From a bacterium (lineage in GTDB: Bacteria > Verrucomicrobiota > Verrucomicrobiia > Limisphaerales > J093), in NCBI GenBank assembly GCA_021823625.1, contig JAKANS010000025.1, positions 1 to 44,425 of the forward strand: DNA of 44,425 nucleotides, in the 5' to 3' direction. Of this stretch, positions 24,096 to 35,436 are shown piece after piece. The stretch's first letter is position 1. Each line of letters opens with the position of its first letter. Under the pieces are notes generated by a model that was not told the DNA's origin, did no database searches, and saw only the letters and a program-made list of their open reading frames with translations. The position numbers and the translations under genes were made by a program.

Positions 24096-24776
24096 TCAGT
24101 CCTTTAGCGGAACCGCCAGGAGTTCCGGCGCCGTCCAGTAAGTCCCACGCGCCTCGGTGGCGGCGCGGATGGCCTTGACGTGGGCGAGTGTCGCCGGACC
24201 GGCGGTGTTGCCCCACTCCTTGTTGCCACGAACGAAGGTGATGACGGCGGCGATGTCCTCGTCCGAGAGCTGGTCGCGCCAGGGCAACATCACATTGTTG
24301 AACTCCGTCCCGTTGACGGTGATCGGGCTTTGCAGGCCATTCAGGACGATGCGGATCATTCGGTTCGGGCCTTCGGTGTTGACCCAATCCGAACCGGCCA
24401 ACGGCGGAAACTGACCGGTCAAACCGCGGGCGTTCGGCTGGTGGCAAGCGGCGCAGTAGGTGTTGTAAACCTTCCTGCCCTTTGCCACCAAGGCATCGGC
24501 CTCGGAATGCGGCACGCGCGCCTCGACGTCCGCGAGCGACTCACCCTGGTTGAACACCAGCGGCTGGAAGCCGCCGCCATTGCGATCCAGGTACATTGTG
24601 GCCCAGTAAAGCGCCACGCCGAAAATCGCGACAAACCAGATGGGCGTGTACCACGCCGTGCCCGCCACCGGTTCGGCATTTTCGCGCAGCGCGTCCGCAG
24701 CGCCCGCCGCCGCCGGTTGGGCAGCCCCGGGCGGGGGCGAAAACTTGCTGGGGCGAGATTTCGGCGCCGACTTCAT
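24096..24776 (-). CDS. Membrane-anchored monohaem cytochrome c, CcoP-like
   Basis: A 226-aa protein with one membrane segment (WYTPIWFVAIFGVALYWATM, about residues 42-61) and one c-type haem site, YCAACHQPNARGLTG, with a probable axial Met in FNNVMLPWRDQLSD. Canonical CcoP has two haems, so this is a reduced, single-haem form, or a different membrane cytochrome occupying the CcoP place. Its ATG overlaps the stop of the ccoO-like gene. It is the last gene of the act operon and may pass electrons onward from CcoO. The first bases of this gene (MKSAPK) are duplicated after actE. Confidence 0.88.
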   Translation of the reverse strand: MKSAPKSRPSKFSPPPGAAQPAAAGAADALRENAEPVAGTAWYTPIWFVAIFGVALYWATMYLDRNGGGFQPLVFNQGESLADVEARVPHSEADALVAKGRKVYNTYCAACHQPNARGLTGQFPPLAGSDWVNTEGPNRMIRIVLNGLQSPITVNGTEFNNVMLPWRDQLSDEDIAAVITFVRGNKEWGNTAGPATLAHVKAIRAATEARGTYWTAPELLAVPLKD

Positions 24777-24813
24777 GGCGAGGCTGAGGCGTTGGTCGCC
24801 GGTGCGTTCGTTG
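24758..24813 (-). repeat. Repeat shared by the ccoO/ccoP-like junction and the actE end
   Basis: This 56-base segment matches 28736-28791 with six differences. It covers the final codons of the ccoO-like gene (ATNASASP and stop) and the first codons of the following cytochrome gene (MKSAPK). Both copies keep the ATGA stop/start overlap. Confidence 0.85.
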
Positions 24814-25549
24814 CGGGTGGCGTGTTCGTCGCAGGCGCGGTGTTGGTCGCGGGCAGAGCGTTCGTCGTAGGAATCGCGTTGGTACCGCCGACAGCAACGG
24901 CCACTTGATTCGTCTTCTTCGGCGGTTGCGGCGGGAAGACTTCGTAGAAGAGCGTTTCCGACTTCAGGCTTTGAAGGTACGCGACCAGTTGGAGGGCGGC
25001 CGTCGTCGGCACGATTTCGGTGCCCGCGGGCGGCGCGAAAATAGCCGGCAGCGGAAGGGCGTTCGTCGAGGGCGCCTGACCGTATCGCAACTTGCGCGCC
25101 TCGAACAGATACGGGAAGCGCGGCATGGTGGAGCCGGGCATTTCGATGCGGGCGTTGTAAAGCTTCATCAGCAGCCGGGTGGCGTTGGTCTGGCGTTCGC
25201 CGAGGTTCGCGAGATCGGGACCGAAGCGCATTTGGCCCAGCATCGGGGGCAGGTCGCGCAAGTAGTCGCGCGACACGGTACGCCGCTTGCCCCAGCCGCG
25301 GGCGATGTCGGCGCCTTCGCCCCGGGAGCGGACCTGCTGGGTGTGGCAGTAATTGCAGCCTTCGGCGCGATAAATTTCCGCGCCTTGCTTCGCTTCGCCG
25401 TTGCGAGCCAGCGGGTACTCGATGCCGAGGTCGTCCAACTTGAGCAGGGCTTGATCGCCAAACTGCAATTGCGGCGCCACGACCGCGCCGAGCCAGGAAG
25501 CCAGCACGGCGCAGAGGATGCCCAGAAAAATGAACGGCCCGTGCCTCAT
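24773..25549 (-). CDS. ccoO: cbb3-oxidase subunit II-like monohaem cytochrome c
   Basis: A 258-aa protein with an N-terminal membrane anchor (IFLGILCAVLASWLGAVVAP) and the CcoO haem site EGCNYCHTQQVRSRGEG. A later Met ligand candidate lies in MPGSTMPRFPYLF, and RFGPDLANLGERQTN matches the family. The C-terminal 45 residues are low-complexity and rich in Thr, Asn, Ala and Pro (for example ATNTAPATNTPPATNAPATN), not part of normal CcoO. The start at 25549 overlaps the stop of the ccoN-like gene (ATGA). Electron acceptor in a usual cbb3 oxidase would be CcoN; here CcoN has no haem ligands. Confidence 0.9.
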   Translation of the reverse strand: MRHGPFIFLGILCAVLASWLGAVVAPQLQFGDQALLKLDDLGIEYPLARNGEAKQGAEIYRAEGCNYCHTQQVRSRGEGADIARGWGKRRTVSRDYLRDLPPMLGQMRFGPDLANLGERQTNATRLLMKLYNARIEMPGSTMPRFPYLFEARKLRYGQAPSTNALPLPAIFAPPAGTEIVPTTAALQLVAYLQSLKSETLFYEVFPPQPPKKTNQVAVAVGGTNAIPTTNALPATNTAPATNTPPATNAPATNASASP

Positions 25550-27030
25550 GCCTTCACCTCCGCGGACAAGGGCGTCACGAGCGCCTTGGCGGCCGGCACC
25601 CACGCGGCGCGGCAGCACGCGACCAGCGCCAACAACAGGTTCAACGCGAACACGCCGGAGCCGGCGAGGAACAGCAGTTGCGCCAGCGTGCCGCTGGAGG
25701 CGAACGGCAGGTAGCGTTTGACCACGTTGATGAACGGCAGTTCGGGATCGTTCAACGCCGCGCCTTGCGCCTGGCCGCCGCCAAGAAACGCGACTGCGAT
25801 CACCGCCACGGCCGCCGCCGCGAGCAGGAAATGCAGGTTCGCGAAAGCCGGTCGGGGCCAGTCGCGGCCCAGCAGCCGCGGCACCACGAAGTACAGCGCC
25901 CCCAGCGCCGCCATCCCGAAAAAGCCCATCAAGGTGAGCTGGTCCAAGCCCACGGTCACCAAGGTGAACTGGGTGGTGTACCGGACCGAGGCGAGCGAGT
26001 TCAGCGCGCCCAGGCCGCCAGCCACCAGGTACGCGAGAAAAGCGAAAGCGGCGAAGCGCAGCGGGACGCTGGCCTTGAGGGCACTCCCCTGATTTCGCAA
26101 CCCGGGCAGCAGGTTTTGCCCCACGGCGTAAACCGGAAACACGGTCAGCACGTTCGCCACGACCGCCAGGCTGAGCATCCAAGCCGGGAACGGCCCGCCG
26201 GAGTAGCGCGTCAGGCCGCCGAAGCCGCCAAACACCGCCAGCGTCCAAAAACCGAAGAGCGCGAGGTTGCGGCTCGGCACCGCGACTCCGGTCAACTTGG
26301 GCAACAAGTAGAAGATGACCGCCAGGCCGAGAAAGCCGAACCACAGCACCAGCAGATTTTGCAGGAACCAGGCTTGGGCGGCGATTTGCAGAACACCGCG
26401 CAGTGGCAGAAACACCGTCATGACATGGCCGGCCATGAAGAACCACGGGAAGCTGAACACCGCGCCGAGGAGATACCATTGCGAGATGTACACCTCGCCG
26501 GGCCGGCGTCGTCCGAACGTGATCGGCACCCAGGCCGCCATGCACAGATAGCCGAGCAGCAGGATCGGCGAGGCAAAGCGCGGGATTTCCAGGCCTTCGA
26601 TCCCCGTGCTTTCGCCGGCGAGAAGGCCGAAGATCCCCAACTTCAGGCCGACGTTCCAAACCAGGGCGCCCAGGATGATCGTGCCGGTGCCCACAAGCCT
26701 TGTGCCGCCCAGGCGGGCGGTCATCCACAGGGCTATTGCCAGCCCGGCCAGCGAGGCGAAGCCGAAGACGAAAGCGTTCCAAGCCGCGGGTTGCAGGCGG
26801 CCGTACGTGAGCCAGGCGTAATCAGCCAGCATTCCGGGCGCGTGGAGTTTGATCGCCGCGAGCAGAGACAGAACGCCCGCCACCAACAACCAGCCTGCGC
26901 TCAGAACCACCAGCACCATCACCGGCCAGCGACACGAGCGGTCAATCTCGGCCACCGACGCGGCAGGAACCGCGGGCGCGGGGGCGGGAACGGACGCTGG
27001 CGAGGTGGGGGTTGGAGCCGGAGAACTCAT
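25546..27030 (-). CDS. CcoN-like (cbb3 subunit I) homologue lacking all haem and copper histidines
   Basis: A 494-aa protein with about 12 membrane segments and clear CcoN framework: AAIKLHAPGMLADYAWLTYG, FYLLPKLTG, ALFGFWTLAVFGGF, GGPFPAW, LMGFFGMAALGALYFVVPRL. It has only three histidines (63, 202, 400), none at a ligand place. In CcoN the low-spin haem histidine follows G-R-x-R-P; here the text is YGRLQPAAWNAFVF. The copper histidine of Y-x-H-N is Gln224 (WFLQNLL), the H-H pair is Thr274-Arg275 (GGLTRYSGGP), and the G-H-x-H pair is Leu362/Gln364 (VGLDQLTLMGFF). As encoded it cannot hold the oxygen-reducing centre. The frame is intact, so it is probably expressed, perhaps as a scaffold for CcoO and the Act complex. 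Starts 39 bases after the 116-aa gene. Confidence 0.88.
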   Translation of the reverse strand: MSSPAPTPTSPASVPAPAPAVPAASVAEIDRSCRWPVMVLVVLSAGWLLVAGVLSLLAAIKLHAPGMLADYAWLTYGRLQPAAWNAFVFGFASLAGLAIALWMTARLGGTRLVGTGTIILGALVWNVGLKLGIFGLLAGESTGIEGLEIPRFASPILLLGYLCMAAWVPITFGRRRPGEVYISQWYLLGAVFSFPWFFMAGHVMTVFLPLRGVLQIAAQAWFLQNLLVLWFGFLGLAVIFYLLPKLTGVAVPSRNLALFGFWTLAVFGGFGGLTRYSGGPFPAWMLSLAVVANVLTVFPVYAVGQNLLPGLRNQGSALKASVPLRFAAFAFLAYLVAGGLGALNSLASVRYTTQFTLVTVGLDQLTLMGFFGMAALGALYFVVPRLLGRDWPRPAFANLHFLLAAAAVAVIAVAFLGGGQAQGAALNDPELPFINVVKRYLPFASSGTLAQLLFLAGSGVFALNLLLALVACCRAAWVPAAKALVTPLSAEVKA

Positions 27031-27069: not shown

Positions 27070-27420
27070 TTACTCGTATTCATTCGGTTTCTCCGGCGGC
27101 TTGGCGGTGGCCTTGTCGATCCGGGTCAGGAGATTGGACCGGCCGGCCGCGGGAACCTGCCAGAGGCGAAGCATCAATTCGACGGCGTTGGTGATCGGGA
27201 TGCGGTAGATGCCCTTGGTTTTGTCCAGAACCTCGGCGGTGGTTTGGAACTTGTGCGCCTCCGCTTGAACCTCGGCGAGGTACTGAAACCGCAGTTTGAC
27301 GCGAGCGGTGTCCACGCCGGCCGGCTGGGTGCGTTGAAAGATCCACCAGGCCAGACCGCCCACCAACAAGAACGTGCCGGCGGCGCCGATGAACCAGGCC
27401 GCCAGTTTGGTTTTGTCCAT
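27070..27420 (-). CDS. 116-aa single-span membrane protein of the act operon
   Basis: The ATG at 27420 gives MDKTKLAAWFIGAAGTFLLV and one membrane segment (about residues 7-28), followed by a roughly 85-residue soluble part with AVELMLRLWQVPAAGRSNLL and a charged end KPPEKPNEYE. No haem motif or cysteine is seen. No family recognised. It sits 23 bases after actF and 39 bases before the ccoN-like gene, at the joint between complex III and the oxidase-like subunits, so a linking or assembly role is a reasonable guess. Confidence 0.75.
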   Translation of the reverse strand: MDKTKLAAWFIGAAGTFLLVGGLAWWIFQRTQPAGVDTARVKLRFQYLAEVQAEAHKFQTTAEVLDKTKGIYRIPITNAVELMLRLWQVPAAGRSNLLTRIDKATAKPPEKPNEYE

Positions 27421-27443: not shown

Positions 27444-28730
27444 TCACTTGGCACCTCCGTTGGCTTGCGGCGCGCGCGTCAGTCCCTCGGCTTCGTCGAG
27501 TGGCACCCCGGCAGTGGCCGACGCATCGAAAAACAACTGACCCATCGCCTCGCCCAGGCGCGGATCCTTCAACGGATACGGTGGGTGGGCGACGAACGCT
27601 TTCAAAAAGGCTTTGAGAAGCACACCGCCGATCAACGCCGCGCAGGCCAGGTCGAGCCAGGCCCATTGGAACGGATACCCATTCGGGTTCGCGGACGGGA
27701 GAATATTGAAGGCGAGGTCCACGTAATGCATCACCCAGGTCCACGCGCACAGCGGCACCATCCACCAGAACTTGAGTTTGAGGTCGATCCGCAACAGCGC
27801 CAGAAACGGCAGAAAAAAGTGGCCGAAGATGATGACCATGCCGACGTACCACCAGGTGCCCTTTTCGCGGAGCACGTACCAGAAGGTCTCTTCCGGCATG
27901 TTCGCGTTCCAGATGATGAAGTATTGGGCGAAGTGGATGTAGGCGTAAAACACTGTGAAGGCGAACATCAACGAGCCGATGAAATAGAACTGTTGTTCCT
28001 GCAACACCGCGGCGAGCGTGCCGTTGCGTTTGAGCACCATCGCGATGAAGTACACGGTGCCCAGGGCCAACCATACGCTGCCGGCAAAGTAATAGACGCC
28101 GTACATGGTCGAGAACCACTCGTACATGAGGCCTTTCATCCACATGATTGAGGCGAGTGTCAGGGTGATGGCAAACAGGAAAATGCCGACGCTGGCGCGC
28201 TGCCGCAGCTTGCGGGTGCATTCCGGCGACCCGGTTTCGTCCTGCTTCAACGACCATTTGCGCAGGCTCCGCGTGAGCCAGCCCCAGACGAGGAAACAGA
28301 ACACCGCGACCAGGTAGAAACCCGGCTTCGTGAACAACGGAAGTTTCGAATGCAAGGCGTGGTTGGCCGCGGGATCGGCCACCGTCATCCAGCCGTAGAG
28401 CTGCGGGGCCAACAGCGCGATGGGCACGAAGAAGATCGCCATCCACGGAAACAGCAGCGTGGAAAGGTGCTCGCAGAAGCGCCGGATCGGCACCGACCAA
28501 CTGGCGTCAAACAGGTGATGCACGAGCACCAGGAACAACGCTCCCAAGCCCAGGCTCAGGAAGAACATGAAGGCCACCAGCCACGAATAGCCGAACTGGA
28601 CGCGGTTGAGCGCGAGACCCAACAAGGCGCCCAACGCGCCGACGCCGATCAGCAGGTTCGGCAACTTCCGCCAGCGGGTCACATCGAGTGGGCCGTCGGA
28701 AAGCAGCGGCGAATGCGAGGAGTCGCTCAT
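27444..28730 (-). CDS. actF: Alternative complex III subunit ActF (NrfD-like integral membrane protein)
   Basis: A 428-aa polytopic protein of the NrfD/PsrC-like fold, with about 10 membrane segments. Family-like blocks include WLVAFMFFLSLGLGALFLVL, LVHHLFDASWSVPIRRFCEH, AFTVFYAYIHFAQYFIIWNA, MPEETFWYVLREKGTWWYVG and IIFGHFFLPFLALLRIDLKL. In alternative complex III, ActC and ActF are the two NrfD-like subunits that bind or translocate at the membrane; ActF lacks the iron-sulfur partner contact of ActC. It begins 20 bases after the actE stop; between them is a vestigial open frame (see findings). Confidence 0.94.
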   Translation of the reverse strand: MSDSSHSPLLSDGPLDVTRWRKLPNLLIGVGALGALLGLALNRVQFGYSWLVAFMFFLSLGLGALFLVLVHHLFDASWSVPIRRFCEHLSTLLFPWMAIFFVPIALLAPQLYGWMTVADPAANHALHSKLPLFTKPGFYLVAVFCFLVWGWLTRSLRKWSLKQDETGSPECTRKLRQRASVGIFLFAITLTLASIMWMKGLMYEWFSTMYGVYYFAGSVWLALGTVYFIAMVLKRNGTLAAVLQEQQFYFIGSLMFAFTVFYAYIHFAQYFIIWNANMPEETFWYVLREKGTWWYVGMVIIFGHFFLPFLALLRIDLKLKFWWMVPLCAWTWVMHYVDLAFNILPSANPNGYPFQWAWLDLACAALIGGVLLKAFLKAFVAHPPYPLKDPRLGEAMGQLFFDASATAGVPLDEAEGLTRAPQANGGAK

Positions 28731-28733
28731 AGG

Positions 28734-28754
28734 CTATTTCGGCGCCAACTTCAT
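28734..28754 (-). pseudogene. Vestigial start of a ccoP-like gene after actE
   Basis: ATG overlapping the actE stop opens a six-codon frame reading MKLAPK and then TAG. The cytochrome gene at the operon end starts MKSAPK with the same overlap and the same flanking bases (repeat 24758-24813). It looks like the copied first codons of that gene rather than a functional peptide. Confidence 0.55.
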
Positions 28755-28791
28755 GGCGAGGCGGGGGCGTTAGTCGGCGGCGCGTTCGTTG
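28736..28791 (-). repeat. Repeat at the actE end, copy of the ccoO/ccoP-like junction
   Basis: Matches 24758-24813 with six differences in 56 bases. It covers the end of actE (ASP and stop) and the bases after it. Confidence 0.85.
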
Positions 28792-29464
28792 TCGGCGCCG
28801 CGTTCGGCGGCAGCGCAGCAAGCTGGTCGGCCGGCACTTCGTCCACCGTGGCCAGCCGGCTGAGTTGGAGCGCGCGCACGTAAGCGATGACCGCCCAGCG
28901 GTCGCGCGGTTCGAGGTTCATGGCGTAACTCTGCATCAGGTTCTTGCCATAGGTCACGGTGTTGAAAATCTCGCCGTCGGTCATCCGGACGATGCGGGGA
29001 TCGTGCAGGTTGGCGATGACCACCATGCCGTACCGGGGAGTGGCACCCTTGCCGTCCGCACCGGCGCCGTGGCAGGGCTGGCAGTTGATGGTGAACCGCT
29101 CCTGGCCCCGGGCGAGCAGTTCGGCCGTGATCGGCAGCGGGTTCACTTCGACAAAGTTGGTCGCGCCCGGCGGCGTCCCCGGCTGCATCCCGGTGTTGAG
29201 CGGGTTGTCCTCGAACGGAAACACCGCCTTGCCGCCGACCATCACGGGCTGGCTCCGGTCAATGGTGTTAGGCACGTGCAGCCGCGAGCTGTAGCCGTCG
29301 GGGAAAAAGTCGTCGGCGGACTGCGGGCGCAACTTCGCCTGGCGGTCCATGTCCGGAAAGATTTCGATGGGCGGCCGCCGCGACAGGCTGCCGCGGAAAC
29401 CCGCGACGCTGACGACCATCGCGCACACCAGGAGGAATCCGAGAAGGAAGTAGCGCATGGTCAT
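28751..29464 (-). CDS. actE: Alternative complex III subunit ActE, monohaem cytochrome c
   Basis: A 237-aa exported or membrane-anchored cytochrome c. The N-terminal segment MRYFLLGFLLVCAMVVSVAG is a signal or anchor. It has a single haem site FTINCQPCHGAGADGKGATP and a probable Met ligand in YGKNLMQSYAMNLEPRDRW. ActE accepts electrons from ActB/ActA and passes them on. Its last 20 residues (NAAPTTNAPPTNAPASP) are Thr/Asn/Ala/Pro-rich and resemble the tail of the CcoO-like protein; they are outside the cytochrome fold. The start overlaps the actD stop (ATGA). Confidence 0.93.
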   Translation of the reverse strand: MTMRYFLLGFLLVCAMVVSVAGFRGSLSRRPPIEIFPDMDRQAKLRPQSADDFFPDGYSSRLHVPNTIDRSQPVMVGGKAVFPFEDNPLNTGMQPGTPPGATNFVEVNPLPITAELLARGQERFTINCQPCHGAGADGKGATPRYGMVVIANLHDPRIVRMTDGEIFNTVTYGKNLMQSYAMNLEPRDRWAVIAYVRALQLSRLATVDEVPADQLAALPPNAAPTTNAPPTNAPASP

Positions 29465-30002
29465 TCCTCCACCAACTCGATGCGTTTGCTGCCCAGCGAC
29501 TCGAGCAACTGCCGCGTGGCGTCCGGGCGGTATTGCGGATCGTCCGTTTCGATCACCACGAAGAACCGGTCGTGGGTGGCCAGCGCAAAGCGCTTGTGCT
29601 TCAGCAGCGGGTGATGCAGCCGCGGCAGGCGGTTGAGAAACAACATGCCCAGCAGCGCGCCGAACGCGCCGAACAGGATCGTCAGTTCGTAGGAGGGCGG
29701 GAACGCCGAGAACGGGCTGAAGTACGGTTTGCCGCCCACCGGAATACGGTAATCGAAGGCGTTCATGAACCAGATCATCAGCATGCCGGTCGTGTAGCCG
29801 GTAACGCCTCCGAGAAAAGAGAACCAGCCCACCTTCGAGTTCTTGATCCCCATCGCCTGGTCCATGCCGTGAACCGGGTAAGGCGTGAAGACGTCCCAGC
29901 GCGAGAAGCCGGCCTCGCGAACCTGCTCCGCGGCGTGCATCGTTTCGGCGGGATTCTCGAACTCGGCAATCACCCCGTAAGGCTTGGCAACGGACTCGCT
30001 CA

Positions 30003-30003
<1 letters not shown>
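29461..30003 (-). CDS. actD: Alternative complex III subunit ActD
   Basis: A 180-aa protein starting at ATG 30003 (MSESVAKPYGVIAEFENPAE). The N-terminal part is a soluble alpha/beta region (AAEQVREAGFSRWDVFTPYP), then two membrane segments (GVTGYTTGMLMIWFMNAF; ELTILFGAFGALLGMLFLNR) linked by the conserved IPVGGKPYFSPFSAFPPSYE. The pattern is DUF3341, the ActD family, a structural subunit. The frame is open upstream in the overlapping actC gene, but ATG 30003 overlaps the actC stop (TGATG) and fits the family. Confidence 0.94.
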
Positions 30004-31426
<1,423 letters not shown>

Positions 31427-31427
<1 letters not shown>

Positions 31428-34400
31428 CAGTGCGCTCCTTTCTGCTCGCCCGCGCCGGTCGCCGAGCCTTCTTGGGTGTGGCCGGCTGTTTCCCCTTCCT
31501 CATGCATCATGCCCCCCTGATCGAGGAATTCCTTGGTGCTCAAAGGCTGGTCGTAAGCGTCCGGCATCTCCGAATTGGGGTTGCGCACCCGCGCCAGATA
31601 GGTGACTCGCGGCTTGGTCGCCAGGTAATCGAGGACCATGTAGGTGCGGTTGTGGGCCCGTGCCTGGGCTACTTCGCTATGCGGATCCTTCATGTTGCCA
31701 AACACGATCGCGTCCGCCGGACAGGCCTGCTGGCACGCGGTCCGGACCGCGCCGTCCCGGACTTCGATGTCGCCCGACGGCCCCGCCTTGACCTTCTGGG
31801 CGATCTTGGCCTGCTCGATGCGCTGGACGCACAGGGTGCATTTCTCCATCACGCCGCGCATGCGCACCGTCACGTCCGGGTTGCGGGCGAGCTTGAGCAA
31901 ATCCCATTCGTCCTGCGCCTTGCTGCCGCGGTCGGGATTCTTGAACCAGCGTTTCATCTCCCACTCGCCGTCGGTGAAGGACGTGAGCGGGCTGCGATAA
32001 AGCTGGTCGAGCGGCCGGCGGTTGTAATCGAAGAAATTGAAGCGTCGGACCTTGTACGGGCAGTTGTTCGAGCAATACCGCGTGCCAACGCACCGGTTAT
32101 AGACCATGAGGTTCAGGCCCTCCGGATCGTGCACGGTCGCGTTGACAGGGCAGACGTTTTCGCAAGGTGCGGCCTCGCAGTGCTGGCACAGCATCGGCTG
32201 TTGCACCACCTGCGGGTGGTCTTCCGAACCGAGGTAATAGCGGTCCAGCCGGATCCAACTCATCTCGCGGTTCCGACTGACCATGTCCTTGCCGACGATG
32301 GGAATGTTGTTCTCGCTCTGACACGCCACCACGCACGCCGAGCAACCGACGCAGGAACCCAGGTCGATGCTCATCGCCCATTGGTGGATCGCAGTCCCGG
32401 ACACCTCGTCGAGCGGGTTCGGGTAAAGCGGACCCAAGCCATCGGGCGCCGGCGTGTTCATCGCCTGTGCAAACCGCGGGTTCTTCTTGAACTCGGCCAG
32501 GTTCGCCTCGCGGATGATCGGCCGGCCCATCATCGTCCAGTGATTCTGCGTGGTGGCGATCTCGAAATCGCGGCCCGCCGGCTGCAGCTTCGCGCCCGTG
32601 GCCAAATGCGGCGCAACGGTGGTCCGTAAGGCGTAAGCGTTGTAGCCGGAGCCGTGGCCCACGCGACCGGTGCGACGGCGCCCGTAACCGAGCGTCAGCC
32701 CCACCACGTTGTCGGCCATGCCGGGCTGGACCCAGATCGGCCCTTCGAGCGTCCGGCCACCCAGTTCGATCCTGGCCACCGGCATGAACGTCTTCATCGA
32801 GGTGCGGCTGCCCTCGTAATCGTGATCGACGCGGTAAAGGCCCAAGGCTTTCGCCGTCGCCGGGCTGACCAGGAAGGCGTTGTCCCAGGTCAACTTGGTG
32901 ATCGGCTCGGGCAATTCTTGCAACCAGCCGTTGTTGTTGTACCGGCCGTCATCCACTTTCGCGTCGCGCACGAACACGAGTTCGAGGCTCTGCATCGTGG
33001 GAGCGGCAAGTGGCGTGGCGGACGCGAGCACCTTGCGCGCGGCAGCCCAATCGAGCTTGGTGACGCTGACCGCCTTCGCCGCGCTGCCGGCGAGGAATCC
33101 GCTGAAAAGGAAACGCTTCCAAGCCTCCTCAAAATCACCGCCGGGGACGAATTCCTTGAAGGTCTCGCGGACGAGGTCGTACGGTTTGAAGGAAGGCAGC
33201 CCGCCGATCCGCGCCAGCACCTCGAGGTCGGTGATGCCGCCAAACAGTGGCTCGATCAACGGCTGCACCGAGACCAGCGTGCCGTCGAGCGTGCGTGCGT
33301 CGCCCCAGGATTCGAGATAATGCGCCGCGGGCAGGTGCCAGTCGCTCACCGCGAAGGTCTCGTCTTCGTGGTCGCCCAGCCGGATGATGGTCTTCGCCTT
33401 GCGCTGCGTGGCCGCCCAGTCGAGATCGGCCGGGGCGGTGTAAACCGGGTTGCCGCCGAGGATCACCAGCGTTTCGACCTCGCCCGCGTTGAGCGCCTTG
33501 GCCAGGTCCGCCAGCGAGCTGGCGCCAGCACCCGGCGCGGCGATGAACGAGACGGTCTTGCCGACGGCCTGCAGGTGGAAGTTGAGGACGTTGGCCAGCA
33601 CGTGCACCGCGAGCGGCTGTTGATGGCCGACCAGCACCACGCCCTCGCCGGGATGCGCCGCCAAATCTTTGAGGCAGGCCGAAGCCCATTTCTGCGCCTC
33701 GGCGGGGAGACTTTTGGCCAGGTCGCGGAGCGCCTGGACGACTTCGCCCGCGCCCGCTGCGTTATCCGACGCCTTCGTCTGCTCGAGCACGTCCGCGGCC
33801 ATCGCCGCAGTCAGCGCCAGCACCTGACTCGACGGCAGACGCAAACGGTGATCGGCGTTCGCGCCCGTCAAAGTCATCAGGCTCTCGACGGCGTAAAGCC
33901 GGCTCATGTCGGCTTCGGGCGACTTGAGCTTGCGGCCTTGCGCGTAGCCGCGGATGAGTTGCCAGGCATCCTCTTCGGCGCCGATGAAGTCGCAGTCCAG
34001 CGCCAGGATTCGCCGCGCCTGGTCGAGGTGGAACACCGGTTTGACCGGCTCGCCGAAAGCCAGGGTCGCGGCCTCGCGGTGAACGTCGAAATCCACCGGC
34101 TCGTGGATGAAGCCGCGTGCCTGCGGGAATTTCTGCCGCAGCAACCCGGCCACTCGCCAGAGCGAAGGCGAACTGCTCCGCCCCATCAGGAAACGCAGCC
34201 CCTGGCCTTGTTTGGCTTCCGCCTCCTTGCCCACCGCGGCCAGGGCGTCCAGCGCCTTTTCGCGCGCGACGTTGTCGCCCTTGTAGGTAAAACGCTGGGC
34301 GCGGTCCGGGTCATACAAATCCAGGATCGACGCCTGGGTCAGCGCATCCGTGCCACCGTGCGGCCGGGCGGGTTCGCCCTCGCCACGCCGGTTGAGCGGA

Positions 34401-34786
34401 TGCTCCGGGTTGCCTTCGATCTTGATGGGCCGGCCGTCGTAAGACTTCACCAGCACCGGAACCGCGCTGCCGCGAATCGGCCGGGAAGTCGCGTAGTACT
34501 GCGGCACGCCGTGCGTGTAGCCCGGCGGCATTTTCGTGAAGGGGAGAATCTTTTCCTCGGGCCGCCGGCAGCCTGTCGTCATGCCCAGCCCCATCAACAG
34601 AAAGGACGCGGACATGATCTGCACGAAGTGCCGGCGCGACACCCCGTCGGTGAACTCGCTGGCGCCTTCCGGGAACTCGCGTTCCATCCATTCGCGGAAG
34701 GCCGGCGTGTCCGCCAGGTGCTCCAGGCTACGCCAATACTTGGGGCCGGTCTCCGGTTCCGGGCAGGGAGGAGGAACGGTCTTCAT
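31427..34786 (-). CDS. actB: Alternative complex III subunit ActB (molybdopterin-like plus iron-sulfur protein)
   Basis: A 1119-aa fusion. The N-terminus carries a twin-arginine-type export signal ([20 protein letters not shown]) followed at once by a lipobox-like TTGC, so it is an exported lipoprotein candidate. The large middle part is a molybdopterin-oxidoreductase-like domain, which in ActB proteins holds no cofactor. The C-terminal part is a four-cluster ferredoxin-like domain with [69 protein letters not shown] and [15 protein letters not shown]. It moves electrons from the quinol site to the haem subunits. The start at 34786 overlaps the actA stop (ATGA). Confidence 0.96.
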
Positions 34787-35436
34787 CGGTGACAGGTGGA
34801 GCAGTTTTCGAGGCTCTGGACCTTCCATTGCGCGACCAGCTTCTTGCCGTCGGCGAGTTGCTTGGTCGCGCTGTCCGGCTGCCAGTTCAGGTTATAGACC
34901 TGTTCCACCGGGCGGATGAAGGCCGCGGGGTTGCGATGGCAGTCCAGGCAGAAGGTCATGCTCAACGGCTGGGCGTGCTGCACCTCGTCCATTTTGTTGA
35001 TCTGGCCGTGGCAGTGGAAGCAGGAGATGCCGCGGTTCACGTGCACGGAGTGGTTGAAATAGACATAGTCCGGCGTCTTGTGAATCCACACCCAAGGAAT
35101 GGGTTTGCCCGTGGCGGCCGACTCGCGCACCAGTTCCAGCCTGGGATCATCTTTGAGCACCTGGTTGTGGCAGTTCATGCAGGTGCTCGCCGCGGGGATG
35201 TTCGAGTGGTAGGACTTCTCGACGCCGGTGTGGCAGTACCGGCAGTCCATCCCCAACTGCTCGACGTGAGTGTAGTGGGAGTAACTGACCGGCTGGATGG
35301 GCTGGTAGCCCACGCGCGTGTACTTCGGCGTGAAGTAATACCACGCCCCGGCCACGACCGCCGAGCCGACCAAAGCCCCCCCAACGATGAGGTAGGCCGG
35401 CAGTTTATTGGTCCATTTCGGGAAAATGTCCGACAT
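34783..35436 (-). CDS. actA: Alternative complex III subunit ActA, pentahaem cytochrome c
   Basis: A 217-aa protein started at ATG 35436 (MSDIFPKWTNKLPAYLIVGG). One N-terminal membrane segment (LPAYLIVGGALVGSAVVAGA) anchors a periplasmic domain with exactly five CxxCH motifs: CRYCH, CMNCH, CFHCH, CLDCH and CSTCH. This is the classic ActA count. It takes electrons from ActB and delivers them to a downstream carrier. First gene of a ten-gene operon in which most neighbours overlap by 1-4 bases. Confidence 0.96.
   Translation of the reverse strand: MSDIFPKWTNKLPAYLIVGGALVGSAVVAGAWYYFTPKYTRVGYQPIQPVSYSHYTHVEQLGMDCRYCHTGVEKSYHSNIPAASTCMNCHNQVLKDDPRLELVRESAATGKPIPWVWIHKTPDYVYFNHSVHVNRGISCFHCHGQINKMDEVQHAQPLSMTFCLDCHRNPAAFIRPVEQVYNLNWQPDSATKQLADGKKLVAQWKVQSLENCSTCHR

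Follow-up and report, generated by a model that had tools for sequence, protein, structure and literature searches.

We report that an alternative complex III (ACIII) operon in a verrucomicrobial genome encodes a homologue of CcoN in which all of the haem and copper ligands have been replaced. The gene lies in a stretch of 44,425 nucleotides that was analysed at full length, here called the window (contig JAKANS010000025.1 of GenBank assembly GCA_021823625.1). We hold it moderately likely that its product is a non-catalytic pseudo-oxidase of the haem-copper oxidase (HCO) fold, which serves as a scaffold in an ACIII-CcoNOP assembly together with a CcoO/CcoP relay. The scaffold status of the ligand-less CcoN is well supported; the physical assembly, the electron route and the absence of bound haem are what we infer from the genes. 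For the superfamily as a whole, it is likely that a cofactor-free pseudo-oxidase has arisen recurrently, with metal sites lost about a dozen times and the protein kept as a haem-c relay scaffold feeding other oxidases, in which case the 'cbb3 oxidase' of verrucomicrobial methanotrophs would be no oxidase.

A CcoN homologue without metal ligands

The frame, read on the minus strand from 27030 to 25546, is open over 494 codons, and residues 37-445 of its product give a Pfam COX1 match (115.7 bits, E 3.3e-33). The nearest solved sequences are the CcoN chains 3mk7 and 9g6b, with which the window protein aligns end to end, and an AlphaFold model built from 57 aligned sequences (mean pLDDT 95.5, pTM 0.92) has its best structural match in CcoN 3mk7 (TM-scores 0.84/0.89); the predicted fold is thus the 12-transmembrane-helix (12-TM) fold of the HCOs. 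The score against the NCBIfam ccoN equivalog is 99.9 bits against a cut-off of 583, under which relatives that keep their ligands also fall (225-234 bits).

Ligands are numbered here as in P. stutzeri CcoN (CcoN1), counted from the alignment with the window protein. Both histidines that hold low-spin haem b in CcoN are gone (H60 to A83, H347 to Q364), as are the CuB ligands (H207 to Q224, H257/H258 to T274/R275) and the haem b3 ligand (H345 to L362), and the catalytic cross-link Tyr251 of the active site is Gly. None of the six haem/CuB histidines remains, nor does the catalytic tyrosine, and the three histidines that the protein has in total all lie outside the ligand columns. An earlier sequence-only reading had described an intact CcoN-like frame overlapping ccoO, three histidines away from the ligand positions, and replacements at an AAWNA site, Gln224, Thr274-Arg275 and Leu362/Gln364, and the frame and the alignment with 3mk7 and 9g6b agree with it on each count. 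Ligands at shifted positions were considered and rejected, the local site contexts of all members revealing no consistent compensating histidine. Because the ligand-poor state is common to three genomes of the same genus and to dozens of families, it is no chance or sequencing artefact.

The gene is part of a ten-gene ACIII operon, actABCDEF-x-ccoN-ccoO-ccoP, made up of the following features:

34783..35436, minus strand: ActA, pentahaem cytochrome c (five CxxCH; Pfam Cytochrome_C7)
31427..34828, minus strand: ActB, molybdoenzyme-like and Fe-S subunit (matches 8k9e_B and 6f0k_B, E<1e-230)
30003..31427, minus strand: ActC, NrfD-like membrane subunit (Pfam NrfD)
29461..30003, minus strand: ActD (position and homologues)
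28751..29464, minus strand: ActE, monohaem cytochrome c (one CxxCH, Pfam)
27444..28730, minus strand: ActF, ACIII membrane subunit (match to 6f0k_F ActF, E 4.9e-58)
27070..27420, minus strand: small protein, gene between actF and ccoN (a single hydrophobic stretch predicted at the N terminus; position conserved)
25546..27030, minus strand: ligand-less CcoN homologue (494 aa; 12-TM HCO fold without haem/Cu ligands; Pfam, alignment, AlphaFold)
24773..25549, minus strand: CcoO-like monohaem cytochrome c subunit (Pfam FixO, 54.6 bits; one CxxCH)
24096..24776, minus strand: CcoP-like monohaem cytochrome c subunit (Pfam Cytochrom_C / Cytochrome_CBB3; one CxxCH)

The assignment to ACIII is firm, given the matches of ActB and ActF to solved chains of that complex, and the cluster presents, in order, a pentahaem ActA, a molybdoenzyme-like and Fe-S ActB, NrfD-like ActC and ActF, and a monohaem ActE. 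Four nucleotides (ATGA, 25549-25546) are shared by ccoN and ccoO. That the partners keep their haem sites, as had been claimed, is seen in the CxxCH counts of ActA (5), ActE, CcoO and the CcoP-like protein (1 each). The small protein is without match in Pfam, NCBIfam, PHROGs and PDB sequence searches, and its homologues occupy the same gap between actF and ccoN in most operons. In family f47 (L176:10253-11047), its place is taken by a protein of 264 aa that has a cytochrome c domain.

Two classes of ACIII-linked CcoN in Verrucomicrobiota

Relatives were found in 52 of the 58 sampled genomes closest to that of the window, using a loose cut-off that also picks up other oxidases, and in 103 of 388 genomes of the phylum at E 1e-25. 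Among 51 named genome loci with relatives, 50 bear Verrucomicrobiota names and one is titled only 'bacterium'; some MAGs in the sample are incomplete. Reading neighbourhoods with profiles built from the window genes, we recovered the order actABCDEF-x-ccoN-ccoO-ccoP in nearly all loci long enough to judge, in line with the constant act linkage that the sequence-only reading had named as a check. More than 100 loci preserve the operon as a unit, and it is intact over whole orders.

Counting operons in which ActF was in view and CcoO was encoded, we sampled about 36 that are ligand-keeping versus about 128 that are ligand-poor. Members of the first class retain all six histidines and the tyrosine, except for two without one histidine; in the second, 0-3 of the six histidines remain, mostly 0 or 1. 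In the thinned set, Y251 is absent in all ligand-poor and present in all ligand-keeping members. The haem motifs of ActA (5), ActE (1), CcoO (1) and CcoP (1) are intact in both classes with very few exceptions. In most ligand-keeping members the position of Glu323 is Gln or a non-polar residue, and they therefore form an atypical C-family branch.

Several loci add detail to this division. Two otherwise ligand-keeping ccoN genes have one ligand replaced (L073 and L046: H207 to Arg, and H257 to Ser with Y251 to Cys), possibly incipient losses or sequence errors. A ligand-poor clade made up of Verrucomicrobiales and of families f47/f52 (L059-L086 and L150-L191) retains the equivalent of H60 in all its members but has lost the haem partner of that residue and most copper ligands; judging by the retained histidine, haem binding might persist in some of these relatives. 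One genome of the window's order (G051) has both classes of ACIII-linked ccoN, one ligand-keeping and one ligand-poor (L021 and L119), and the ACIII-linked CcoN of G156 (L167) is ligand-poor. A further CcoN-like group with all six histidines and an adjoining CcoO-like gene (L201-L205, L207, L209 and L211) occurs in other classes of the phylum (f74, f107).

Conserved residues and proposed function

Columns that are invariant in the ligand-keeping relatives have a mean entropy of 1.67 bits in the ligand-poor members, and the six ligand columns lie above this mean, at 2.4-3.1 bits (Mann-Whitney p 7e-4). Such variability would be as expected with nothing bound there, and the fold is preserved as the metal sites drift. 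Position 258 is Arg or Lys in 25/54 of the thinned set, a charge that could offset that of the missing copper.

In the scaffold explanation, the ancestor would have been an ACIII-coupled C-family oxygen reductase, the all-ligand form of which is still found in relatives. The sites of haem b, haem b3 and CuB would have drifted away after the cell had gained a different terminal oxidase or come to rely on one, and the 12-helix body would have been retained as a membrane scaffold holding monohaem CcoO and CcoP against ACIII. Quinol electrons would then pass through ActB/ActA/ActE to CcoO/CcoP and onward to an A-type oxidase (its gene adjoins the operon in many relatives and sits on a different contig here) or to a soluble cytochrome c. 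The constant gene linkage suggests the association of the ligand-less CcoN with ACIII. That a former oxidase subunit has turned into one free of metal ligands was the central proposal of the sequence-only reading, and it is supported: the gene is linked to act genes wherever the flank is long enough and is under purifying selection, its partners keep their haem motifs, and the genome has separate complete oxidases.

A residual membrane function other than that of a scaffold, such as letting protons or ions through or binding quinone in a manner coupled to ACIII, would need neither haem nor copper. It would suit a confident all-helical 12-TM-type fold with a conserved core, encoded near actF, whose product has been proposed to translocate ions (PMC5928083). 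We consider it unlikely, however: of the residues at least 85% conserved in the ligand-poor class, nearly all are Trp, Gly, Pro, Phe, Arg or Asn, and none is a Lys, Glu, His or Tyr that would hint at a shared mid-membrane proton path. It is quite improbable that the protein is instead a redox subunit that still binds a cofactor through unusual ligands, be it a single haem b or a metal held at a displaced position. The H60 equivalent kept in Verrucomicrobiales members and the two or three of six histidines retained in some members speak for such binding, but the window protein has 0/6 ligands, the replacement residues vary by family (A, Q, S, T, R, L, I), and the conserved residues of ligand-poor members include no alternative His, Met or Cys.

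Other oxidases and the destination of electrons

For the scaffold reading, a separate complete oxidase should be looked for in the same genome, as the sequence-only reading had advised, and several are present. The window genome has coxA with a COX2 gene near it on contig 132 (aa3), a CcoN-CcoO fusion with every ligand kept on contig 309 (cbb3; 1258 bits to the bifunctional CcoNO model), and CydA on contig 227 (bd), together with a quinol-type NO reductase on contig 204; the cell could therefore reduce O2 without need of the window protein. The same genome also holds a 543-aa frame with repeated weak COX1 matches (G000:C60:1018-2202, L005-L007; 55.6 bits together), which is no normal oxidase.

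Most ligand-poor genomes examined have another HCO, and two that have no other COX1 (G006 and G052) possess CydA. Two genomes that are 98-99% complete (G058 and G203, 1.3-1.7 Mb) have no COX1 besides the ligand-keeping form, no COX2 and no CydA; the ligand-keeping form is thus most likely their terminal oxidase and probably reduces O2. A family relative of these two (G262) has the ligand-poor form and another oxidase with COX2.

Where the flank is long enough, 43/86 ligand-poor operons lead directly into an A-type coxA on the same strand, within about 1.1-2.5 kb of ccoN, as against 2/15 of the ligand-keeping ones; as a hint to the electron route this is only suggestive, the cases being clustered in a few clades and not independent. 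The earlier description of a system 'without its own terminal oxidase' was accordingly half right: no oxidase adjoins the ACIII operon in the window genome, where the A-type oxidase is on another contig, but half of the ligand-poor operons run into coxA. At L070 the coxA run continues as coxC-coxD. A missing coxB was suspected in the adjoining A-type cluster, and COX2 was found a few kb further on in the genomes tested.

Repeated loss of the ligands

On a tree of ActB and ActC from 70 operons, 11 changes of ligand state are required. A model without regain gives 18 losses (15-22 over bootstraps), a count inflated by two ligand-keeping entries nested in the window's order; without these two it gives 12 (11-13 over bootstraps). 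The no-regain count could also be too high if ligand-keeping operons had been transferred a few times. A single split on the ActB and ActC tree is rejected with all entries included (AU p 2e-46), and the CcoO tree has 9 state changes, 7 of them forced by strong branches. Roughly 11-13 independent losses, about a dozen, would thus be needed on these trees. A clear recent case is G230, which is without any ligand and shares 92% identity in ActC, 79% in ActB and 61% in CcoN with G105.

A single monophyletic ligand-less clade, the outcome that the sequence-only reading had named as support for a new subunit type, is not borne out: the CcoN tree hints at it, and the ActB and ActC and the CcoO trees contradict it. 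On CcoN alone, 3 changes are enough, most ligand-poor proteins group together and they form long branches. This grouping would be explained if the ligands had been lost once and the ligand-less ccoN had then spread by replacing ccoN in other operons, which we judge very improbable. The overlapping neighbour ccoO and the act genes tell against it, the long branches concerned are prone to attraction, and in the one case tested, that of f49, the CcoN data do not reject keeping the proteins of the family together (AU p 0.151). Even on the CcoN tree, moreover, G230 and the f50 pair are losses nested inside ligand-keeping clades.

That the oxidase module is simply in decay, its useless genes kept by inertia in a relaxed, pseudogene-like state, is largely refuted and hardly credible: losses do recur, ligand-poor CcoN evolves faster than its partners (47% identity for CcoN and 94% for ActC between L149 and L055) and a few matches have one in-frame stop, but nearly all copies have open frames, the operon is conserved over whole orders, the fold of the window protein is predicted with confidence, and dN/dS of CcoN in close ligand-poor pairs is 0.02-0.29, like that of CcoO and above that of ActC, purifying selection that shows the genes not to be decaying pseudogenes.

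Verrucomicrobial methanotrophs

The repeated loss of the metal sites extends to the methanotrophs of the phylum. PmoA is carried by family f48; family f54, once considered as the methanotrophs, has no PmoA. The methanotroph loci (L192 and L197-L200) are members of the ACIII-linked family, and in 5/5 methanotroph genomes sampled the ACIII-linked CcoN is ligand-poor, the six sites reading SESHFV or ADAHQT. A second C-type CcoN was not recognised in any of the five. For the rest, f48 genomes have two COX1 proteins of aa3-like type, one or two of ba3-like and one of NorB-like type, the last two types having been checked by sequence in G099. The ACIII-adjacent 'cbb3-type' oxidase of verrucomicrobial methanotrophs and Opitutaceae has been published as a functional C-type oxidase (PMC8498564, PMC6688271, PMC11102522); given the loss of ligands in f48, the reported methanotroph cbb3 oxidase is probably no oxidase. 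In G129, nosZ and nosD lie inside the ACIII cluster beside coxA, an arrangement described for Methylacidiphilum caldifontis IT6 (PMC11102522). At the methanotroph locus L200 (L200:6479-13046), a nosZ, nosD cluster between actF and the small gene splits ccoN-ccoO-ccoP-coxA from the act genes.

Significance and comparison with known systems

Respiratory physiology is often inferred from counts of oxidase genes, and a ccoN match is read as high O2 affinity. In Verrucomicrobiota, methanotrophs included, ACIII-linked ccoN is usually without metal-binding residues, and proteins now catalogued as O2-consuming 'cbb3 oxidases' probably have a structural role instead. Operon pairs in which one partner has the active site and the other lacks it (for example G105 versus G230, 92% identical in ActC) form a natural series, which makes a non-catalytic role of the oxidase body for ACIII directly testable.

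A literature search did not find a ligand-less HCO, or an ACIII with such a subunit, described, which is no proof that there is none. In the ACIII-caa3/aa3 supercomplexes of Rhodothermus marinus and Flavobacterium johnsoniae, electrons are handed over directly to the oxidase; ActE or ActA contacts the oxidase there, and no CcoN/CcoO/CcoP module between the two is described (PMC5928083). The 'cbb3-type' oxidase of methanotrophs and Opitutaceae has the same gene linkage as the window operon. With CcoN of the P. stutzeri cbb3 oxidase (3mk7), the window protein shares the 12-TM fold (TM 0.84-0.89), framework motifs and ccoO and ccoP-like neighbours, but it lacks the ligands of haem b, haem b3 and CuB and the cross-link tyrosine, scores 99.9 bits where 583 are required, and has a monohaem CcoP in its operon. 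It resembles pseudoenzyme subunits generally, in which, likewise, the active site is lost while the fold and the partners are retained.
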